Positions 655-13,000 of a DNA stretch of 25,160 nucleotides are shown here, piece by piece. Source of the stretch: a virus; IMG/VR virus record IMGVR_UViG_3300027963_000315, positions 1-25,160 of that record. One strand, written 5' to 3'. Under the pieces are notes generated by a model. That model was not told where the DNA came from, did no database searches, and saw only the letters and a program-made list of their open reading frames with translations. Each line of letters opens with the position of its first letter. Position 1 is the stretch's first letter. The position numbers and the translations under genes were made by a program.

Positions 655-2515
655 TGTTTATCGTTTGGCTTTTCTTGATGGTTTGCGACCTGAAGCTGAC
701 CTAACGGTCAGCCAATGGGCCGACCAATATCGAATGCTTAGCAGCAAAGCCAGCGCCGAACCTGGTCCATGGCGCACCAATCGAACGCCATATTTACAGG
801 AACCAATGGATGCGCTTAGCAGCAACAGCCCTATTCAAAGGGTGGTGTTAATGTTTGCAGCTCAAACCGGTAAGACCGAAGCCGGTAGCAATTGGCTTGG
901 CTATGTGATTGCCCATGCCCCTGGGCCGATGCTGTGCGTGCAACCTACGGTTGAGATGGCCAAAAGGCTTAGCAAGCAACGGCTTGAAAGCATGATTACT
1001 GAAACGCCAGTGTTATCTGAAAAGATAGCGCCAAGTCGCAGCAGAGATAGTGGAAACACAATGTTTTCAAAGGAATTTCCAGGTGGCATGATGCTGCTAA
1101 CTGGTGCCAATAGCGCTACCGGCTTGAGGTCTACGCCATGTCGATATATTTTTTGTGATGAAGTGGACGCGTTTCCGCTTGATGTGGATGGCGAAGGCGA
1201 CCCAGTAAGCTTGGCCGAAAAACGCGCTACAACATTTGCAAGGCGCAAGATTTTACTTACTAGCACACCAACGGTAAAAGATTTTAGTAGGATTGAGTCC
1301 GAATATAACCGCAGCGATCAAAGACGTTTTTATGTGCCATGTCCCGCCTGTGGAGTTATGCAATGGTTGAAATGGTCGCAATTAAAATGGCAAAATAATG
1401 ATGCAAGTACAGCTAAATATCAATGCGAAAGTTGCCGTGAGCAATTTTCCGAAATCAATAAGCCGGTGATGCTACGCAAAGGTGAGTGGCGGGCTACCGC
1501 GCCAAGCGATGGCAAGACTGCTGGGTTTCAATTGTCGGGTTTGTATTCACCACTTGGTTGGCTTAGTTGGTCGGATATGGTTGATGAATTTTTACGCGCT
1601 AAAGGTGATGCGCCAATGCTTAAAAGTTATGTAAATACAAGGCTTGCGGAAACGTGGGAGGAAGATTATGCCAGCAAGGTTGATGCTGCTGGATTGCTTG
1701 AGCGCTGCGAGCACTATGAGCCAGCGGTGTTACCCGAGGAAGCTTTGGCATTGACGGTTGGTGTTGACGTTCAAGGCGGCGGCGGCAGTGCTGGCGATCG
1801 GTTGGCGTTTAGTGTCTGGGCATGGGGCCGTGATGAGGAAGGCTGGTTGGTGGCGCACCAGGAAATTTATGGCGATCCATGCCGGCCAGAAGTATGGAAG
1901 CAATTAGATGAAGTGGTGCTGCGCGAATGGCCTCATGCTGCTGGCGGGAAACTGCGGCCTGATGTGGTTGCGATCGATAGCGGCGGCCATGCCACTGCTG
2001 AGGTCTATCAATATGCGCGCGAACGTGGCCGCCAGGGCGTGGTGGCTATCAAGGGTTCCAGCCAGCGAGGCAAGCCACCAATCGGGAAGGCCAGCAAAGT
2101 CGACCTTAATAGCTCTGGCAAATCGCTAAAACGTGGTGCAACGGTTTACCCGGTGGGTGGCGACACGATTAAGACAACGTTGTTTGGCCGGCTTAAACAC
2201 AACGAGCTGGGGCCTGGTTTTTTGCATTTCCACATGGATACAACGGGTGAATATTTTGAGCAACTGACCGCTGAAAAGCAGGCATTACGTTTCGTGAAGG
2301 GTTTTCCGGTTCGTGAGTGGGTCAAGAAACCATCGGCACGGAATGAAGCGCTTGATTGCTTGGTCTATGCGTATGCGGCATTGAATTTGATGTACCAGCG
2401 CTATGATCGACGCACAATATGGGATCAGCTGGAACGCCGCTTGGAACAACCAACAGCTCCGCTAAGATCAAAGAAGGCCGCCGCTGCTGGCCCTGCATTC
2501 GTTAACAATTGGTAA
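647..2515 (+). CDS. Terminase large subunit (GpA/lambda family)
   Basis: A 622-residue packaging motor that translocates DNA into the procapsid using ATP and cuts concatemers with its C-terminal nuclease. The N-terminal ATPase shows a Walker A-like AAQTGKTE at 71-78, a Walker B YIFCDE at 167-172 and a coupling motif LLTST at 203-207. Two cysteine pairs, CPAC (232/235) and CESC (260/263), make a zinc-ribbon-like element common in GpA proteins. The nuclease part carries VGVDVQ (Asp374), VVAIDSGG (Asp443 region) and NEALDCLVYA (Asp570), consistent with an RNase H-like acidic triad. The length is typical of the family. The upstream in-frame start at 614 gives a longer N-terminus but lacks a ribosome binding site. 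The gene is followed after 4 bases by the connector gene. Confidence 0.95.
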   Translation: MSDVYRLAFLDGLRPEADLTVSQWADQYRMLSSKASAEPGPWRTNRTPYLQEPMDALSSNSPIQRVVLMFAAQTGKTEAGSNWLGYVIAHAPGPMLCVQPTVEMAKRLSKQRLESMITETPVLSEKIAPSRSRDSGNTMFSKEFPGGMMLLTGANSATGLRSTPCRYIFCDEVDAFPLDVDGEGDPVSLAEKRATTFARRKILLTSTPTVKDFSRIESEYNRSDQRRFYVPCPACGVMQWLKWSQLKWQNNDASTAKYQCESCREQFSEINKPVMLRKGEWRATAPSDGKTAGFQLSGLYSPLGWLSWSDMVDEFLRAKGDAPMLKSYVNTRLAETWEEDYASKVDAAGLLERCEHYEPAVLPEEALALTVGVDVQGGGGSAGDRLAFSVWAWGRDEEGWLVAHQEIYGDPCRPEVWKQLDEVVLREWPHAAGGKLRPDVVAIDSGGHATAEVYQYARERGRQGVVAIKGSSQRGKPPIGKASKVDLNSSGKSLKRGATVYPVGGDTIKTTLFGRLKHNELGPGFLHFHMDTTGEYFEQLTAEKQALRFVKGFPVREWVKKPSARNEALDCLVYAYAALNLMYQRYDRRTIWDQLERRLEQPTAPLRSKKAAAAGPAFVNNW

Positions 2516-2519
2516 TGCC

Positions 2520-3089
2520 GTGAACATTCCAAGCCAAATCCGAGCGGACAATACGGTCAAATGGCGCGATGATTCGGGTGTTGATGTATTCGGCAATGCA
2601 ATTACCAGCGCAACGTGGACGCTGACTTATTACCTCCGCACCAATACAGCAAGCGAAGGCGCAACGGTGGTTGGCAGCGCTTATGGTATCGGCTGGGAAA
2701 TGACGATTTCAGCCGCAACCAGCGCTGGCTTTGATGCAGGGCAATGGTTTTGGCAGGCGATTGCAACGTATAACAGCGAAAAGATTACGCTTGGCGCTGG
2801 CCAGCTTGAGGTGCTGCCAGCGCTTAATTACACCAGCACACCAGGCGCATTTGACGGTAGGACGCAAGCGCAAAAGGATTTGGAAGCTGTGCAGGCTGCG
2901 ATTAGAACGATCGTATCCGGCGGCGTGGTGCAGGAATATCGGATTGGCACCAGAAATTTGAAGAAATATGAAATGGCTGATTTGTTGATGCTTGAGGGTA
3001 AACTAAAGGCTGAGGTGAAGCGCGAGCAAGCCGCCCAGCTGCAGGCCAACGGCCTGGGCAACCCCCATAACCTGTTTGTGCGCTTCTGA
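2520..3089 (+). CDS. Head-tail connector-like protein with gpW-type C-terminus
   Basis: A 189-residue protein lying between terminase and portal, where lambda keeps its small gpW joining protein. Residues 1-100 look like a beta-rich domain (RADNTVKWRDD..., ATWTLTYYLRT, QWFWQAIATYNSEKITLG), of the kind seen N-terminal in baseplate or BppU-like proteins. Residues 110-189 are helical, with DGRTQAQKDLEAVQAAI and the gpW-like end MADLLMLEGKLKAEV and LFVRF. I recall this two-part arrangement between terminase and portal in other GpA-type siphophages. The start is GTG at 2520; the next in-frame ATG is 60 codons later. An ATG at 2515 opens only a two-codon frame (ATG CCG TGA) that contains the GTG. 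The exact virion role is inferred. Confidence 0.65.
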   Translation: MNIPSQIRADNTVKWRDDSGVDVFGNAITSATWTLTYYLRTNTASEGATVVGSAYGIGWEMTISAATSAGFDAGQWFWQAIATYNSEKITLGAGQLEVLPALNYTSTPGAFDGRTQAQKDLEAVQAAIRTIVSGGVVQEYRIGTRNLKKYEMADLLMLEGKLKAEVKREQAAQLQANGLGNPHNLFVRF

Positions 3090-4618
3090 TGGGCATTCGT
3101 TCTGCAATTTATAGCTGGCTACGGAGCGGCGCACCTAAGCCACGGCAACGCGGGTATCAAGGCGCTTCGGTAACAAGGCTGACGGCTGACTGGATTACCA
3201 GCTCAACCAGCGTTGATTCTGAGATTAAATCTAGTTTTAGAACATTACGCAATCGTGCGCGGCAACTGGTTCGTGATAATGATTTTGCGCGGCAGGCATT
3301 GCGGTCAGTGCAAAATAATGTGATCGGTCAAGGCATCAAGATGCAGCCGCAGGTCAAGATGCAACGCGGCGGCAAATTAGACGAAACATTGAACGAACAA
3401 ATCCACGAAAAGTGGGAAGAATGGAGCCGTAAGCAAAGTTGCCACACTGCTGGCATGTTGTGCTTTAGCGATATTGAGCGCTTGGCAATTCGATCAATTT
3501 GCGAATCAGGGGAAGTATTTATACGATTGGTGCGTCAACCATTTGGCGGCGGCAAGACTCCATTTGCGCTTGAAATCCTTGAAAGCGATTATCTGATTGA
3601 TGATGAAGTGCCCCAGCCAGTAAACGGCAACATGGTGCGGATGGGCGTCGAGGTTGATCGCTGGGGACGGCCTGTTGCTTATCACTTTTATCAGTCACAC
3701 CCTGGTGATCAGTTTGTTGGCGCCAATCGGCAGAATATGCGCCGCATTCGGGTACCAGCAGCAGATGTGCTGCATTTGTTTATTACAGAACGCCCTGGCC
3801 AAACCCGTGGCGTGAGCTGGTTTTCTAGCGCCATCCAACGGTTGCATCATTTGGCTGGCTACGAGGAAGCTGAAGTTATCCGTGCGCGGGCCAGCAGTAG
3901 CTTGATGGGCTTTATTACTAGCCCTGACGGCGAACTGCATGGTGATGAGATTTACAATGGCGAACGAGTAAGCAATTTTGAGCCTGGTGTGTTCAAGTAT
4001 TTGCAGCCCGGTGAGACTGTATCGGTTCCAAGCCTTGATGCACCAGATGGTCAGTTTGAACCATTTATGCGTTCGATGTTACGCGCTGTCGCGGCTGGTG
4101 TTGGCTGCAGTTTTGAATCTGTATCTAAAGATTTTACACAAACCAATTACAGCAGCAGCAGGTTGAGCTTGCTGGAAGAACGCGATACCTGGCGGGTGTT
4201 GCAGAAGTTTATGATTGAAAATTTCCATCAGCCTATATATGAAGCATGGCTTGAAATGGCAGTAATGAGCGGTGAGCTGCCAATTCAAGGGTATGAAATT
4301 AATCCAGAGCGATTCCGTAAAATTCAATGGATGCCCCGCGGTTGGAGCTGGGTTGATCCGCAGAAGGAAGTTGAAGCCTATAAGACCGCCGTCCGCTGTG
4401 GGTTTAAGACGTTATCTGATGTTGTGTCAGAGCAAGGTGGCGACCTTGAAGATCTACTGCTGCAACGACAGGCCGAGCTGGCCAAGTTTGACGAGCTTGG
4501 CATTGTGTTGGATACAGACCCAACTCAGGTAAATGATGCCGGCGCCCAACAGCCGGTGCCATTGGTGGAAACACCAACACCCACCGAATATGATTCTCAA
4601 GATGAGGTAATCGCATGA
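3089..4618 (+). CDS. Portal protein (lambda family)
   Basis: A 509-residue portal, the dodecameric ring at the packaging vertex through which DNA enters and to which the neck attaches. Family-typical segments are a helical N-terminal stretch with LRNRARQLVRDNDFARQALR then NVIGQGI, a central beta region with VDRWGRPVAYHFY, and the conserved PAADVLHLFITERPGQTRG followed by an arginine-rich stem helix region (EEAEVIRARASSSLMGFI). The C-terminus contains the NYSSSRLSLLEERDTWR signature of lambda-type portals. It overlaps the previous stop by one base (TGATG) and the capsid gene by ATGA, so coupled translation is likely. Size and order match the family. Confidence 0.93.
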   Translation: MGIRSAIYSWLRSGAPKPRQRGYQGASVTRLTADWITSSTSVDSEIKSSFRTLRNRARQLVRDNDFARQALRSVQNNVIGQGIKMQPQVKMQRGGKLDETLNEQIHEKWEEWSRKQSCHTAGMLCFSDIERLAIRSICESGEVFIRLVRQPFGGGKTPFALEILESDYLIDDEVPQPVNGNMVRMGVEVDRWGRPVAYHFYQSHPGDQFVGANRQNMRRIRVPAADVLHLFITERPGQTRGVSWFSSAIQRLHHLAGYEEAEVIRARASSSLMGFITSPDGELHGDEIYNGERVSNFEPGVFKYLQPGETVSVPSLDAPDGQFEPFMRSMLRAVAAGVGCSFESVSKDFTQTNYSSSRLSLLEERDTWRVLQKFMIENFHQPIYEAWLEMAVMSGELPIQGYEINPERFRKIQWMPRGWSWVDPQKEVEAYKTAVRCGFKTLSDVVSEQGGDLEDLLLQRQAELAKFDELGIVLDTDPTQVNDAGAQQPVPLVETPTPTEYDSQDEVIA

Positions 4619-6371: not shown

Positions 6372-6563
6372 ATGAAAATTGAGGTCTTGCGGCAAACAAT
6401 GTTGGCAGGCCAGGTAATCCGTATTGGGGAAGTGCTTAATGCTTCCCCTGCGGATGCCAAATTCCTGATCGGCATTGGCAAAGCAATTAAGGCTGCAGAC
6501 GCTGTGGCCCAAGTAATTGAAACGATCCAACCCACACCCCCAAAACGGAGGACTAGCAAATGA
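6372..6563 (+). CDS. Small post-capsid protein
   Basis: A 63-residue protein starting 3 bases after the capsid stop and ending in an ATGA overlap with the next gene. The sequence begins MKIEVLRQTMLAGQVIRIGE and continues SPADAKFLIGIGKA, a pattern I recall from short proteins often found just after capsid genes in siphophages, probably a small beta-hairpin plus helix. The C-terminus is basic and proline-rich (PTPPKRRTSK). The function is not known. Tight coupling to capsid and decoration genes suggests a role in the head. Confidence 0.65.
   Translation: MKIEVLRQTMLAGQVIRIGEVLNASPADAKFLIGIGKAIKAADAVAQVIETIQPTPPKRRTSK
6547..6562 (+). promoter_or_regulatory. Strong Shine-Dalgarno (GGAGG) before the decoration-like gene
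   Basis: GGAGG at 6547-6551 sits 8 bases before ATG 6560. It is one of the best ribosome binding sites in the window and fits a protein made in large amounts. Confidence 0.7.
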
Positions 6564-6949
6564 CCATCCACAATCTCGGTTCTAAGACCGATCTGTTGAA
6601 CCTGCATAACACCGCTGTGGTTGCTTCCACCGGCGCTGGCACCCCTGCCTATGTTGACCTGCTCAACTATGAAGGCGACGTTGCTTTCATGATTGATGCC
6701 GCCGCCGCTGGCTCGGGTGTCACCCGTACCGCCAAGTTGCAGCATTCCGCTACAACTACCGCTGGCGATTTCGCTGATATTACTGGTGGCGGCTTTACCG
6801 CTGCTGCTGCTAATACCGCATTCAGCGAAAAAATTTATCTCAACAGCGACAACCTGCTGCGTTATGTGCGCGTGTTGTTTACTGTGAGCGGTGGCAGCGG
6901 TACCGGTTCAGTTTCAGTCACAGCTCTTGCTTCTAAGAAGTACGTCTGA
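6560..6949 (+). CDS. Probable capsid decoration or stabilisation protein
   Basis: A 129-residue protein with a strong GGAGG ribosome binding site and biased codon use like the major capsid and tail tube genes, which points to a high-copy virion component. It is rich in Ala, Thr and Gly and looks all-beta: YVDLLNYEGDVAFMIDA, TAKLQHSATTTAGDFADITG, RYVRVLFTVSG. The LQHS...DFADITGG...RYVRV...SKKYV pattern recalls small Ig- or jelly-roll-like proteins that commonly follow capsid genes. There is no enzymatic motif. Head decoration is inferred from position and expression signature; a neck protein is the alternative. Confidence 0.6.
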   Translation: MTIHNLGSKTDLLNLHNTAVVASTGAGTPAYVDLLNYEGDVAFMIDAAAAGSGVTRTAKLQHSATTTAGDFADITGGGFTAAAANTAFSEKIYLNSDNLLRYVRVLFTVSGGSGTGSVSVTALASKKYV

Positions 6950-7227
6950 TGGCTTTTGCTGAGGATCTATCGACGTTCCTCAACGATTTCGGCGTCAGCT
7001 GCACAGCTGGCGCCGTTACTGCATTGGGGATTTTAGATATGCCTGCCCAGGTGATCGCCGGCGATATGGTGCTGAGCACTGATTATACATTGACAGCAAA
7101 AGCCAGCAGCTTTGGCACCTTGGTCTACGGCAATTCGATTACAGTGGCTGGCACTGCCTATACAGTGCGCGAGACAAGGTTAATTGATGATGGTGCTTTT
7201 GTAGAAATTGGATTGCAAAAAACTTGA
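6949..7227 (+). CDS. Head completion / head-tail joining protein (FII-like)
   Basis: A 92-residue protein whose start overlaps the preceding stop (TGATG). It has the layout of small neck proteins of the lambda FII kind: a short helix (FAEDLSTFLNDFG) followed by a beta barrel with TAKASSFGTLVYGNSITV, then AYTVRETRLIDDGAFVEIGLQK. The closing strand ending in a short LQ-type tail is typical of that family as I remember it. Its position between capsid genes and the tail terminator supports a role sealing the connector and docking the tail. The call is by pattern and order. Confidence 0.7.
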   Translation: MAFAEDLSTFLNDFGVSCTAGAVTALGILDMPAQVIAGDMVLSTDYTLTAKASSFGTLVYGNSITVAGTAYTVRETRLIDDGAFVEIGLQKT

Positions 7228-7859
7228 TGAGTAATTTCAAGGCTGACAAGGCTTCCGTGTGGTCGGCATTGAACCCGACACTATTGATGGGTGAAACTGG
7301 CCATGAAATTGACACAGGTAATCTAAAGATTGGGAACGGCATTAAACCATGGAATCAATTGCCATATTTTGGTTGTCCTGGTTACTGGGGATCCTTTTGG
7401 GACGAAACCTCTCAAACCGCAACCGCCAACACGCCAACGTCTATTCTGCTGCGCTCCAGCGATACCAACAGCCGCGGTATTGCAATAGCGTCAAACAGCA
7501 GAATAACTTTTGATTATACCGGCGTTTATAGCATTACGTTTTCAATTCAATTTAGCAATACTGACAACAGTATTTATGACATTGACGTATGGTTAAGAAA
7601 AAACAATAATAATGCAGCTGGCGATGTACCAGCAAGCGACAGCAAATTTAGTATTATTTCTAGCCATGGCGGAACCGCTGGCAACGTAATTGGCACTGTT
7701 AATTTTGTCACAAGATTACAAGCCAAAGATTTTATCGAATTGATTTGGAATACGAGCAACGTGGCTGCTTACATTCACACCGAAGCTGCTAGCACCAGTT
7801 CGCCGGTGCATCCAAGCATTCCTGGCGTAATTTGCACCATCGTCCAGGTTGCGTCATGA
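7227..7859 (+). CDS. Mtd_N-like plus C1q-like jelly-roll virion protein
   Basis: A 210-residue protein. Residues 8-47 (ADKASVWSALNPTLLMGETG, then EIDTGNLKIGNGIKPWNQLPY) match the N-terminal attachment motif of tail-fibre and Mtd-like proteins. Residues 52-210 form a C1q/TNF-like beta sandwich with GSFWDETSQTATAN, YTGVYSITFSIQFSNT, IDVWLRKN, DFIELIWNTS and PSIPGVICTIVQV. Such domains trimerise and bind surfaces in phage adhesins. The ATG at 7227 overlaps the previous stop (TGATGA); a TTG at 7224 is less likely. The gene uses A/T-richer codons than its neighbours. It sits between two neck genes, not with the fibres, so it may be a head or neck whisker, or an accessory insertion. Confidence 0.7.
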   Translation: MSNFKADKASVWSALNPTLLMGETGHEIDTGNLKIGNGIKPWNQLPYFGCPGYWGSFWDETSQTATANTPTSILLRSSDTNSRGIAIASNSRITFDYTGVYSITFSIQFSNTDNSIYDIDVWLRKNNNNAAGDVPASDSKFSIISSHGGTAGNVIGTVNFVTRLQAKDFIELIWNTSNVAAYIHTEAASTSSPVHPSIPGVICTIVQVAS

Positions 7860-8281
7860 CGACCAAACGCGAAACAATTATTACCGCGATCCGTACTGCA
7901 CTCACCGGTACCACCGGCGTTAGCACCAGGATCTATCGCAGCCGCGTGGAGCCCATAGCTCGCGCTGAAAGCCCTGCAATCGTGGTTGAACCTATCAGCG
8001 ACCAAGCCAGCCAAAACACAAGCCTCCCCACGCTGGATTGGAGCCTTACCGTTCGTGTTGCAGTAATTGTGCGCGGCAACATCCCGGATCAAATTGCTGA
8101 TCCAATAATTGAAAGCCTGCACGGCAAACTAATGGCCGATCTTACGCTTGGCGGCTATGCCATCGACATTCAGCCAGTTGGGGTGACATTTGAAACCGTT
8201 GAAGCAGATCAACCAGCGGGCGTGGTAATGTGTGATTATCGAGTGCTTTACCGCACTTCGGTCGCAAATCTTGCGAGCTGA
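7856..8281 (+). CDS. Tail terminator / tail completion protein
   Basis: A 141-residue protein starting at ATG 7856 in an ATGA overlap; a longer frame from TTG 7832 is unlikely. The N-terminal helix KRETIITAIRTALTG, the strand RIYRSRVEPIARAESPAIVV, the LTVRVAVIVRG segment and the C-terminal CDYRVLYRTS match the alpha/beta fold pattern of lambda gpU/Z-like and related tail terminators. These form a ring ending tail polymerisation and docking to the head. The position just before the tail tube genes is the standard one. Confidence 0.75.
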   Translation: MTTKRETIITAIRTALTGTTGVSTRIYRSRVEPIARAESPAIVVEPISDQASQNTSLPTLDWSLTVRVAVIVRGNIPDQIADPIIESLHGKLMADLTLGGYAIDIQPVGVTFETVEADQPAGVVMCDYRVLYRTSVANLAS

Positions 8282-8283
8282 TC

Positions 8284-8451
8284 ATGGCTATCATGATGGA
8301 TGAATATTGGGGCCAAGGTGGTTCTTACCTTCTTGATTCCAAAACCGGCAAGCGGAAGCTCATTGAGCGGACAGAGCCGGCCAACACTCAACCCGAGGAA
8401 TTGAGCAATGGCTCTGCTAACACGGAAACGGCTGATCCTAGCCAAGGCTGA
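8284..8451 (+). CDS. Small overlapping protein upstream of the tail tube gene
   Basis: A 55-residue frame opening at ATG 8284, 2 bases after the terminator gene's stop, and ending at TGA 8449-8451, inside the tail tube gene (44-base overlap in another frame). The sequence begins MAIMMDEYWGQGGSYLLDSK and continues TGKRKLIERTEP; the second half is polar and acidic. I recall short proteins with this YWG-GGSYLxDxKTGKR pattern at the same spot in related phages, which argues it is real. The function is unknown. Translation of this frame would carry ribosomes up to the tube start, so coupling is possible. Confidence 0.55.
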   Translation: MAIMMDEYWGQGGSYLLDSKTGKRKLIERTEPANTQPEELSNGSANTETADPSQG

Positions 8452-9343
8452 AGCTACCTACGGCACCGACCCAACACCAACTGGATCGGCTAATGCGATC
8501 CTAGTGCGTAATTTAGAAATCACGCCGCTTCAATCTGACATTGTTCAGCGTGAACTAATCCGCCCTTATTTGGGTAATTACGAGCAGTTACTCGCACAAA
8601 CCCGTGTGCAGGTAACTTTTGAGGTTGAACTTGCCGGCTCCGGCGCTGCTGGTACTGCACCTGCCTATGGCCCCGTGCTTAAGGCCTGTGGGCTGTCTGA
8701 GACCGTGTTGGCCACCACTAGCGTTACCTACGCGCCAGTAAGCACCAGCTTTAGTTCGGTCACGATCTACTTCTATCAAGACGGCATTCGTCACATTGTG
8801 ACCGGCGCCCGCGGCACATTTACCCTCAACGGCCAGGTCGGAGCAATCCCTACCATCGCCTTCACGATGACCGGGATCTATAACGCTCCTACCGATACAG
8901 CGCTTGCTACGCCAACTTATGCCAACCAAGCAACACCGCTGATCTTTAAAAACGGCAACACCACCAGTTTCTCAGCATTCAGCTATTCCGGCGCCCTTCA
9001 ATCAATCGATCTCAATCTTGGCAACGAGATTGTTTATCGTGAATTGATTGGCGGCACTAAAGAAGTGCTAATTACTGACCGCAAGCCTGCTGGCACCATG
9101 TCGATTGAGGCCGTGCTGTTGGCCACCAAGAATTATTTCACGGTGTCCACCGGTTCGACCACCGGTAGCATTTCGTTCCAGCATGGCACCACTGCTGGTA
9201 ACATTGCAACGCTGACGATGGCTCAGTCAGATTTGGCGGACGCATCCTATGCCGACTTAAACGGCATTGCAATGCTAAACCTGCCTTATGTGGCGACTCC
9301 AACCGCCGCCGGCAACGACGAACTGTCCCTTGCTTACACCTGA
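8408..9343 (+). CDS. Major tail tube protein
   Basis: A 311-residue tail tube subunit. The opening LLTRKRLILAKAEATYGTDP then NAILVRNLEITPL and QRELIRPYLG is characteristic of a long tail-tube family of siphophages. The middle (FEVELAGSGAAGTAPAYGPVLKACG) and the DLNLGNEIVYRELIG segment also fit a duplicated tube fold. GAGG at about 8395 precedes ATG 8408 at suitable spacing. Codon use is strongly biased (ACC, GCT, CTG), as in the capsid gene, consistent with hundreds of copies per virion. It is followed after 6 bases by the chaperone gene G. Confidence 0.9.
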   Translation: MALLTRKRLILAKAEATYGTDPTPTGSANAILVRNLEITPLQSDIVQRELIRPYLGNYEQLLAQTRVQVTFEVELAGSGAAGTAPAYGPVLKACGLSETVLATTSVTYAPVSTSFSSVTIYFYQDGIRHIVTGARGTFTLNGQVGAIPTIAFTMTGIYNAPTDTALATPTYANQATPLIFKNGNTTSFSAFSYSGALQSIDLNLGNEIVYRELIGGTKEVLITDRKPAGTMSIEAVLLATKNYFTVSTGSTTGSISFQHGTTAGNIATLTMAQSDLADASYADLNGIAMLNLPYVATPTAAGNDELSLAYT

Positions 9344-10008: not shown

Positions 10009-13000
10009 CGCTGATACCCAATTTAGAATTGAGGCCTTAGTCCGTGGCGTTGAAAACGTCGAGGGTCTTAAGTCTGCAATTAAATCCCTGCAAGGATCTG
10101 CAACTCCCGCCGCATCAGATTTAAATAGATTACGTGATGCTGCGGTAGCACTTGGTTCTGCGTCAAATGCATCAGAAAATAATCTACGTTCAGCAGTTAA
10201 TACACTTAAAAGCCTTAAAGATCAAGCATCAATTGCAAGCAGTGAATACAGGCAGTTTGCACAAGATATCAAGCTCGTAGAAAATCGCTTAAATTCTGTA
10301 ACGCAAGCTGCAACACAATTCAAAAGCGCCAGCAGCGGTATTGCTTCTGGTGGCAATGCAGGCCAAGCAATCATGGGCAGGGGGCGCACTTATGGTGCCT
10401 ATGGCCAAATGCCTTTTGGCACCAATGACCCCGAGTTTTGGCGCAACCAAGTTGAAAATGCATATCCAAATCCGATCGGTCCCCAACAATTAAATTACGG
10501 CCAAGCAAATCAAGCGCTTGACCAAATGCGGTCTTCGTTGGATCAGCAATATTCATTGCAACAACGAGCAAGAGTAGAACGACTTGAGTTGAATGAAAAA
10601 TATAATCAATTAGAAATTCAGGCAGAAAATAGGCAACAAGCTGCTTACTTAAAGGAACAAAGGGCTGGATTTGATGCTCAAATTGCAGATTTCGACAGGC
10701 GCCTTGCTGCGCGAGGTAGGCGTCAACAGCGTCGACAAGAATTTGGGCAATCCGCGGGTATTGTAGCTGCAGCCGGCATATTTGGCGGCCCTGAAGCGGC
10801 TGTAGGCGCTGGCGTGGGTGCAGCACTTGGCGGCCCAGCTGGCGCTCAAATGGGCGCCAGCATTGGGGCAACTGCAGCGCTGGTTCGGCAAAGTGTTGTA
10901 AGTACAGCGGAATATGCGGCAGAAGTTAGCAAGCTAAACATTGCCTTGAAAGGTGTTACTGGTACATCAAGTGAATACGCAAGAGCACAGCAGGCCATTA
11001 AATCTATAAGTCAAGATTTTAATGTTCCAATTCTTGACGCTACTCAATCATTTACTCGACTTTCCGCTTCCGTTAAAGGCGCAGGCGGCAATATAAAAGA
11101 TGCAAATCTTGTATTTAGAAATGTCACTGCTGCAATTAAAGCTACTGGCGGCAGCACAGCCGATACACAAAGCGCATTGCTTGCAATGTCGCAAGTGTTC
11201 AGTAAAGGCAAGGTTAGCGCAGAAGAGCTAAGCGGCCAGCTTGGAGAACGTCTCCCAGGCGCCGTGGCACTATTTGCTAAGTCAACTGGCAGAACATTGC
11301 CGCAATTGCAAAAAGATCTTGAGCAAGGAACTGTTGGCCTTAATGATTTAATGAAATTTGTTGCGGCGCTGGGGCCTCAATACGCAGAAACTGCCAAAAG
11401 AATGGCAAATTCAACGGATGAAGCAGGCGCAAGAATGGAAAATGCATTGAAAAAAATGCAACTTGCATTTGGTGAATTCTTTAAACCTGTAGGTGCCGGC
11501 ATACAAGATTTAATTACAAAATTTGCAAATCTAGCGACTGCTGCAATTGAATCATCAAAAAGAAGCGCTATTGAGATTGCAGCTAATCAAAAAGCTTTTG
11601 AACAAGCTTCCAAAGAGCAAGGCAGTAGAGGACTTCTAGGTTTTCTTGATCCTAAATTCAGGGAGCGTTACAATCAATTATCTACTACAGAAAAAAATAA
11701 AGAATTAGAAAAATTAAAAAAAGAACTTGACAAACCATCAAATTATGAAGATCCCAAGGGGGATGAAACCAAGGGAATGACAGAAAAAGAATATAAAATA
11801 TTGCAAAACGTGGCCAGCTTTAAAGCAAAAAGTAATTATGACATTTTAAGTAATTTAAAAAATATTGCAGTTCTTGAAAGAAAAATTCGCGAAGAAGAAG
11901 AAAGAAAAAATATTGCAGGAGTGCAAAGTTTAAGCGTAGCAAAACTGCAATATGAACTTGCAAATAAAGAAATTGAAAGATCAGTAAAGCTTTCGGAGGC
12001 GGGAGCACAAGTTGCACTTGAAAAAGATCCAAAAAGGAAAAAACTTCTTGCATTTCAGCGTGGATATTTAGAGGAAACTACTCTTAAAGAAAATGAAATT
12101 TTTAAATTTCAAGCGCAATTAAGAATTGAAGAAAATATTTCTAAATTAAAAAAAGATCAAACAAAAGAATTAGACAAACAAAAAGACAAATACGACGAAA
12201 TCAAAACCAAAATGCAGCAAATGCTGTACGAGCAGGCTGACGTAAATGCAAAGCAATTAACTGAAGCAGGTTTGCGTAAACAATATAGAAATGACCCCAA
12301 GGCTCTTGCCGCTGAATTGGGCGATTTAAAAGTAAGGCAAACATATGATCAATTATTAAAACAAGAAACAGAAAAAGCAAGGCAAGCAGGAATGGGGAAT
12401 AAAGATTTTCAAGAAATAGTTGATGGCCTTAACGCAAGCAGGGAGGAAGCCCTTAGAACAGCATATGCTATACGACAAATAGATGCAGAAATTGAAAAAT
12501 TAAATGCTGCTGATATTGGCCAAGGCCTTCGCGATGGCTTAAAAGGTTTTACTGACGGCATTGGAACATTAAATCAAAACGTATCTGCATTAACAACTAA
12601 TACGTTTAAAGGATTATCAGATAGTATTGTTGAATTAGCCACAACTGGCAAAGCAAATTTTAAAGATTTTGCAAATTCAATAATTAAAGATATGATTAGA
12701 ATTTTGACTCAACAATTAATATTAAAACCTATTGTGCAAGGCATTGGTAATTTATTTGGTCCGGCCGCATCTTCTGCTGGCTTTGGATCTGGTTACACCA
12801 ATCCAGTGACTGGCGTAGGTACTGCTGGCCCTAATTTTGGTTTTGCCAATGGCGGCATCATGACCCCCATGGGGCCAATGCCGCTCAAACGCTATTCCAA
12901 TGGCGGCGTTGCCAATAGTCCGCAGATGGCAGTATACGGCGAAGGCAGCAGGCCTGAGGCATTTGTGCCATTGCCTGATGGGCGCAGGATTCCGGTAAAA

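Follow-up and report, generated by a model that had tools for sequence, protein, structure and literature searches.

Fibres fixed at the neck of tailed phages, including optional ones with swappable modules, are already known. Of 113 phages in the 936 group, 73 carry the lactococcal neck passage structure (NPS), an optional extra fibre with exchangeable binding modules that is thought to serve as an ancillary adsorption device (PMC6669499, PMC9692632); in TP901-1, the NPS gene follows the RBP gene, past the baseplate genes (PMC4493119). Neck-fixed fibres have also been described for A-1(L) (gp82-gp81-gp80), T4 (the whisker, wac) and XM1 (collar spike gp40) (PMC10966104, PMC10491603). What is new in the present work is an exchangeable slot between the genes for the head-tail attachment protein (FII) and the tail terminator (TT), a small cargo type that joins an Mtd_N-type N-terminus to a C1q-type head, and a neighbouring retroelement slot. 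A literature search, with most subscription papers outside its scope, returned no account of the FII-TT slot or of its protein in the virion, and for that reason the novelty is not proven.

By analogy, the slot fibre would work like the lactococcal NPS without belonging to it, as both are optional within a phage group, a likeness of behaviour and not of descent. NPS proteins span some 500-900 aa and comprise a BppU-like N-domain and a coiled coil, whereas the slot protein examined here has 210 aa and is all-beta in its model; its N-domain, judged from its own matches rather than from a direct comparison with BppU, is of the Mtd_N type, and its gene lies between FII and TT rather than after the RBP gene as in TP901-1. 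The collar fibres of T4 and XM1 are rich in coiled coil and are different proteins, the T4 fibritin-type whisker having a coiled-coil shaft whereas no helix in the model of the 210-aa protein exceeds 5 residues. The neck fibres of A-1(L), bead chains of three proteins, are likewise different from it.

The window, by which we mean the whole stretch of 25,160 nt that was analysed, is a virus record with a siphophage structural operon in the order terminase, portal, protease-capsid fusion, cement-like protein, FII, 210-aa gene, TT, tail tube, tape measure, tail tip and fibres; large tail-fibre-type proteins of its own are also encoded. Among the phage records searched, its capsid protein is nearest to those of S-LBS1 (53%), S-CBS3 (50%) and S-CBS1 (49%), and by sequence comparison the virus is a siphophage akin to these cyanophages. 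In S-LBS1 (MG271909.1, L235), the gene between tail tube and tape measure, A18 (11026-11406), is named a cobalamin/siderophore transport ATPase; a tail assembly chaperone is expected at that position, and A18 is probably misannotated.

All features of the slot lie on the forward strand. The cement-like head protein (6560..6949) is Bbp16-like, with a Pfam Bbp16 match of 3.6e-4 that falls under the cut-off for that family. FII (6949..7227), the upstream border, matches Pfam Phage_attach with 33.5 bits, over the cut-off of 26, and phrog_82, head closure Hc1, at 0.002; TT (7856..8281), the downstream border, matches phrog_4204 at 4.5e-37. Between them lies the fibre-like cargo of 210 aa (7227..7859), with its ATG at 7227 and its stop at 7857-7859. 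The FII stop and the cargo start overlap by 1 nt in TGATG (7225..7229), the cargo stop and the TT start by 4 nt in ATGA (7856..7859), and in relatives with an empty slot FII is joined to TT by the same ATGA. The open reading frame that the initial annotation had placed inside the neck gene cluster is real and is overlap-coupled between FII and TT. In all 194 loci matching the 210-aa protein at more than 150 bits, many of which are repeat pieces of the same contigs, FII lies just upstream and/or TT just downstream, so the neck-slot position of the gene is not a matter of chance. No promoter signal was found for the gene itself, with 1 promoter-like site against 2.3 expected by shuffling. A search of a genome collection for relatives of the protein gave 15 pattern matches, 0 of them confirmed, and so no prophage or host was found.

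It had also been claimed that the gene uses more A/T-ending codons than its neighbours. Its GC3 is 0.438, as compared with 0.500 for FII and 0.518 for TT, and the claim holds to that extent; however, the effect is weak (the mean difference of cargo minus flanks is -0.04 over 77 relatives) and the gene is no outlier in the window, where the tape measure stands at 0.304 and others at 0.39-0.44. Codon usage was therefore discounted as a sign of foreign origin, as the GC3 of the gene falls within the range of the window.

The protein divides into an N-terminal attachment domain of the Mtd_N or hyaluronidase-N-terminus type (residues 1-50, 7227..7376) and a C1q/TNF-type jelly-roll head (residues 51-210, 7377..7856), the latter assigned from an AlphaFold2 model and fold matches. 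The monomer model has a mean pLDDT of 82.5, with values of about 83-94 over residues 51-210 and of 41-70, which is low confidence, over the N-domain. Residues ~4-50 are matched by PHROG tail-fibre, tail-spike and hyaluronidase families (best 5.6e-11), phrog_31660 matches residues 5-153 at 7.3e-12, and the family profile matches solved phage hyaluronidases at their N-terminus (6x3m, E 5.2e-6). The Pfam Mtd_N family (PF18454) itself scores 5.6e-5 and 23.4 bits, below its curated cut-off of 26.3, while related cargos pass it (S-CBS1 gp10 with 55.7, L124 with 40.8 and L134 with 62.7 bits). As such, the Mtd-type N-terminus proposed earlier stands as a match to fibre, spike and hyaluronidase N-termini, but not as a Pfam Mtd_N assignment. 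This type of N-terminal domain is common to Mtd, the major tropism determinant of BPP-1, and to streptococcal phage hyaluronidases, although the 210-aa gene, unlike these, lacks a retroelement and codes for neither a lectin-type VR domain nor an enzyme domain.

The C1q-like beta sandwich of the initial annotation is upheld as a prediction by the confident monomer model and its C1q/TNF fold matches, and the predicted fold is not that of a connector. The best PDB matches to the head, with Z of 14-17, include BxpB (17.1, rmsd 2.5 over 138), BclA (16.9) and the C1q domain of Caprin-2 (15.1). Other C1q heads also rank among the best solved matches, as do the central spike of phi812, the CBD of the A-1(L) short tail fibre and one chain of the portal-tail complex of cyanophage A4. 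While residues ~50-210 share the fold of the exosporium proteins BclA and BxpB (ExsF), these and the C1q heads are only 9-18% identical to the 210-aa protein and no common function is implied. Conservation of the head is high (77% mean column identity across the family), which by sequence is unlike a fast-changing primary receptor-binding protein, and because of this conservation strict host choice is less likely than a loose first contact or the binding of a generic ligand.

Gene order was compared across relatives, and the 210-aa gene is present in some and absent in others. Among the matches listed, the loci found with FII or TT as bait gave, after removal of duplicates, 100 distinct FII-TT intervals, of which 55 were empty with FII and TT overlapping, 27 held the 210-aa gene alone, 2 held it with others, 10 held a 106-aa protein and 6 held other genes, mostly fibre-like. 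Each search took the best 80 of 360 to 576 relatives, so that these frequencies describe the relatives closest to the window, and 14 of the 160 loci listed with the FII and TT baits had no complete interval. Over all loci, again among the matches listed, 225 intervals comprised 115 of the window type, 32 of the S-CBS1 type, 55 empty, 10 of the 106-aa kind, 6 with C1q and more, and 7 others, a total that includes loci found by the cargo itself, which are occupied by construction. Further cargos are an Mtd_N-collagen protein of 510 aa in L124, an Mtd_N protein of 368 aa in L134 and, in L118, L146 and L151, proteins whose repeats look YadA-like by eye; the 106-aa cargo has a weak family match only (phrog_16217, E 0.003) and was not called a fibre. 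A small DUF7936 protein was seen at the downstream end of filled neck slots, adjoining fibre-like genes (L099 2502-2816 by Pfam match; L094 4421-4735, L251 5053-5403 and L235 8903-9301 alike by eye). Of 11 gene boundaries in the structural module, the FII-TT boundary had more than 250 nt of extra length in 36 of 90 cases, portal-capsid in 10 of 67 (which may reflect longer N-termini of the capsid protein), cement-FII in 4 of 46, and the remaining eight in none.

The cyanophages S-CBS1 and S-CBS3 carry in the same slot a protein of the same size class (202 aa; gp10 and gp09, respectively, annotated 'tail fiber protein'), which in S-CBS1 gp10 has an Mtd_N-type N-terminus as in the 210-aa protein. 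S-CBS1 gp10 matches the window family in a profile-profile comparison over 157 columns with a probability of 98.3%, yet it is a distinct cargo family, as single sequences resemble each other chiefly in the N-domain (31% over 130 columns); the model of this family is of low confidence (pLDDT 58). S-CBS1 encodes a second Mtd_N-C1q-type protein, gp20 (L233 17056-17604), at the end of its tail genes, which is possibly a tail-tip twin of the neck-slot protein. In S-LBS1, the slot combines a 568-aa fibre and a 180-aa protein related to the S-CBS1 cargo with a tyrosine recombinase, the 'integrase' of that phage (L235 8088-8942), which is encoded beside the fibre genes. The S-LBS1 paper notes the integrase and a divergent tail-fibre gene of low GC, and the available part of its text does not discuss the FII-TT slot (PMC6157547).

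Five pairs of empty and occupied loci have flanks of 95.5-99.0% nucleotide identity over 0.7-4.9 kb either side, with the ATGA overlap kept, and start/stop overlaps were kept in every slot state examined. In a tree of FII and TT proteins with 140 rows (162 distinct intervals, reduced to 152 without short FII or TT matches and to 140 without identical ones), the window-type cargo underwent at least 17 state changes, of which well-supported branches force 11; for the empty state the minimum is 22, with 16 forced. Window-type proteins average 69% identity across backbones that are only 40-55% identical, about the same as between backbones of 65-75% identity. The S-CBS1-type cargo of L247 is 96% identical where FII is 71% and TT 66%, and in L244, FII and cargo are both at 99% where TT is at 38%. 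Sequence comparison thus identifies the slot cargo as an exchangeable accessory gene, gained and lost between near-identical phages. The suggestion of an accessory gene spliced into an overlap-coupled operon is borne out by this clean presence and absence, by the alternative cargos and by the occurrence of similar cargo on dissimilar backbones. Since direct repeats are lacking in window positions 6900-8500, besides one 20-nt pair at 75%, and the slot borders share only the start-codon overlap ATGA(C), it is simpler to suppose that exchange runs via flanking homology. A dedicated recombinase as the agent of insertion was considered and dropped, as kin of the S-LBS1 slot recombinase occurred in just one other locus of those examined (L392), which lacks this backbone.

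The two parts of the protein differ in how they follow the backbone. The identity of the N-domain tracks that of capsid (0.63), FII (0.54) and TT (0.49) in a Mantel-type rank correlation, with 0 of 200 permutations as high, whereas residues 151-210, though adjoining TT, hardly do so (0.20, 0.16 and 0.11, respectively); the comparison covers the 47 of 77 cargo loci with usable capsid and tube matches, and the loci are not independent. This fits a docking part adapted to the particle and an exchanged head, although linkage to FII may explain part of the correlation. Heads related to that of S-CBS1 (77-86%) without its N-domain were found in eight loci (L281-L288), one of which, L286, is cut short there, such that its missing N-domain may be simple truncation. 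L288 is an unrelated siphophage with other capsid and neck families, in which the head (77%) bears another N-terminus and its gene is flanked by those for Ad1 (phrog_477) and Hc1 (phrog_161) and precedes the Neck1 and terminator genes. Read by eye, L282 shows this arrangement too; L281, L283 and L284 were read as ORF lists only, and L285 and L287 fell outside the gene-order comparison. Distant relatives of the window head were examined in 12 named phage records: 2 lie near a portal gene (DC33, ctQRb9), 5 beside a P22-type 'phage stabilization protein', 1 after a capsid gene and 4 elsewhere or unclear. On these gene orders, related heads are commonly, though not exclusively, placed on the neck or portal side. 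Limnohabitans phage DC33 (PQ492659.1, L237) is filed under Inoviridae, yet has 39 kb and a podophage-type portal (phrog_332), and that filing looks wrong.

With a probability that we put at roughly 0.57, the 210-aa gene occupies an exchangeable adhesin slot as its cargo and encodes a short trimeric fibre docked at the head-neck. The cargo would be made together with the neck proteins by translational coupling and, although only the monomer was modelled, would form a short trimer whose predicted N-domains of ~50 residues dock onto the head-neck, while the C1q-type heads may tether the virion loosely to some common glycan or other surface molecule on host cells or on particles. Such binding would add to that of the window's own tail fibres, and the slot fibre would be dispensable for assembly. 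The head or neck whisker proposed in the initial annotation is the favoured form of this idea, given the related heads among neck- or portal-side genes of unrelated phages. Some observations weigh against it: the position of a gene does not fix the position of its product in the virion, as the neck fibre of TP901-1 and gp20 of S-CBS1 illustrate, distant C1q relatives are encoded at other sites too, and the distal neck-fibre module of A-1(L) did not bind host cells (PMC10966104). Taking neck and head together, we consider this end of the virion quite probable and the tail improbable.

A second variable slot, bordered upstream by the cement-like gene and empty in the window, lies between that gene and FII; the interval exceeds 400 nt in 18 of 167 loci (overlapping pieces counted). 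In L246 and L257 it holds an Mtd-like gene (Pfam mtd_2nd), accompanied in L257 by bAvd and a reverse transcriptase (RT) identified by Pfam, and in L246 by an RT identified by Pfam and an Avd by similarity to L257. The 120-nt VR/TR pair of L257 has 21 differences, 19 at template adenines, and that of L246 has 20, 17 at template adenines, with 0 adenines in the variable copy in either case; L376 has the same pattern (12 of 14 at template adenines). These diversity-generating retroelements lie in the head-neck cluster, between the cement and FII genes (L257 2495-5334, with L406 being the same contig; L246 863-3705; L376 1829-4660), and in L246 and L257 the FII-TT slot is filled by an S-CBS1-type fibre. 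Relatives of the retroelement are mostly in other backbones, 40 of 45 loci having neither FII nor cement in the piece examined. The 210-aa gene itself does not appear to be a retroelement target, as window positions 6900-8500 contain no direct-repeat family besides the one 20-nt pair at 75%, and a scan of 20 window proteins gave no match to an RT family. In the unrelated siphophage L282, the neck genes are accompanied (1193-4228) by a fibre-like ORF of 564 aa and by another that resembles an RT (30% identity); a retroelement there was dropped, as the repeat pair has no adenine bias (3 versus 3 of 13 mismatches).

Targets of such retroelements are typically receptor-binding or capsid-surface proteins (PMC5883640), which favours a reading of the slots as places for surface adhesins. 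A broader and more tentative proposal, which we hold to be possible but doubtful, is that the head-neck junction carries a modular adhesin platform separate from the tail tip. Both slots would accept interchangeable fibre cassettes, exchanged at the gene-overlap borders; one slot could evolve actively by retroelement, and the C1q fibre of the window would be a plug-in whose N-domain is the backbone-fitted plug.

Of the alternatives to the head-neck fibre, the one that survives best, though we consider it unlikely, is a capsid (head) fibre, with the N-domain docked on the capsid or cement protein. N-domain identity does correlate best with the capsid protein, but the capsid sequence is longer and the comparison hence less noisy; the relatives in the podophages DC33 and ctQRb9 lie just behind the portal gene, in ctQRb9 ahead of the scaffold and capsid genes, and the adjacent second slot comes after the cement gene, whereas the slot of the 210-aa gene is downstream of FII and does not adjoin the capsid gene. 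Somewhat less probable still is a tail-side or tail-tip fibre whose gene occupies a tolerated insertion point among the neck genes. Mtd_N-type N-termini are typical of tail fibres, spikes and hyaluronidases, S-CBS1 gp20 is of the same protein type and sits at the end of the tail genes, and C1q-type domains occur in tail proteins such as the A-1(L) short tail fibre and the phi812 central spike. However, window-type genes were found in the neck slot only (194 of 194 loci), and in the unrelated L288 a related head, joined to a different N-terminus, is likewise encoded among neck genes.

We regard as very improbable a passenger ('moron') without a virion role, for instance a protein secreted or displayed on the infected cell, for while the gene is optional, exchangeable and slightly lower in GC3, it encodes a fibre-type N-domain, has overlapping starts and stops within a virion operon and shows no promoter signal of its own. 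Last, an essential connector or head-completion protein, which the location between FII and TT might suggest, was rejected as next to inconceivable: the gene is no universally conserved neck gene, being missing from 55 of the 100 intervals among the matches listed, near-identical phages included, and its product has a predicted C1q fold.

If the head-neck fibre is the correct reading, cyanosiphophages would determine some of their surface binding away from the tail tip, by means of a slot that can lose or regain a gene while the neck genes are translated undisturbed. Because near-identical phages differ naturally in whether they have the gene, the purpose of neck and head fibres, long an open question, becomes directly testable. 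Furthermore, the label 'tail fibre' may be misapplied in operons of this kind, and predicting hosts solely from tail genes may overlook binding proteins.
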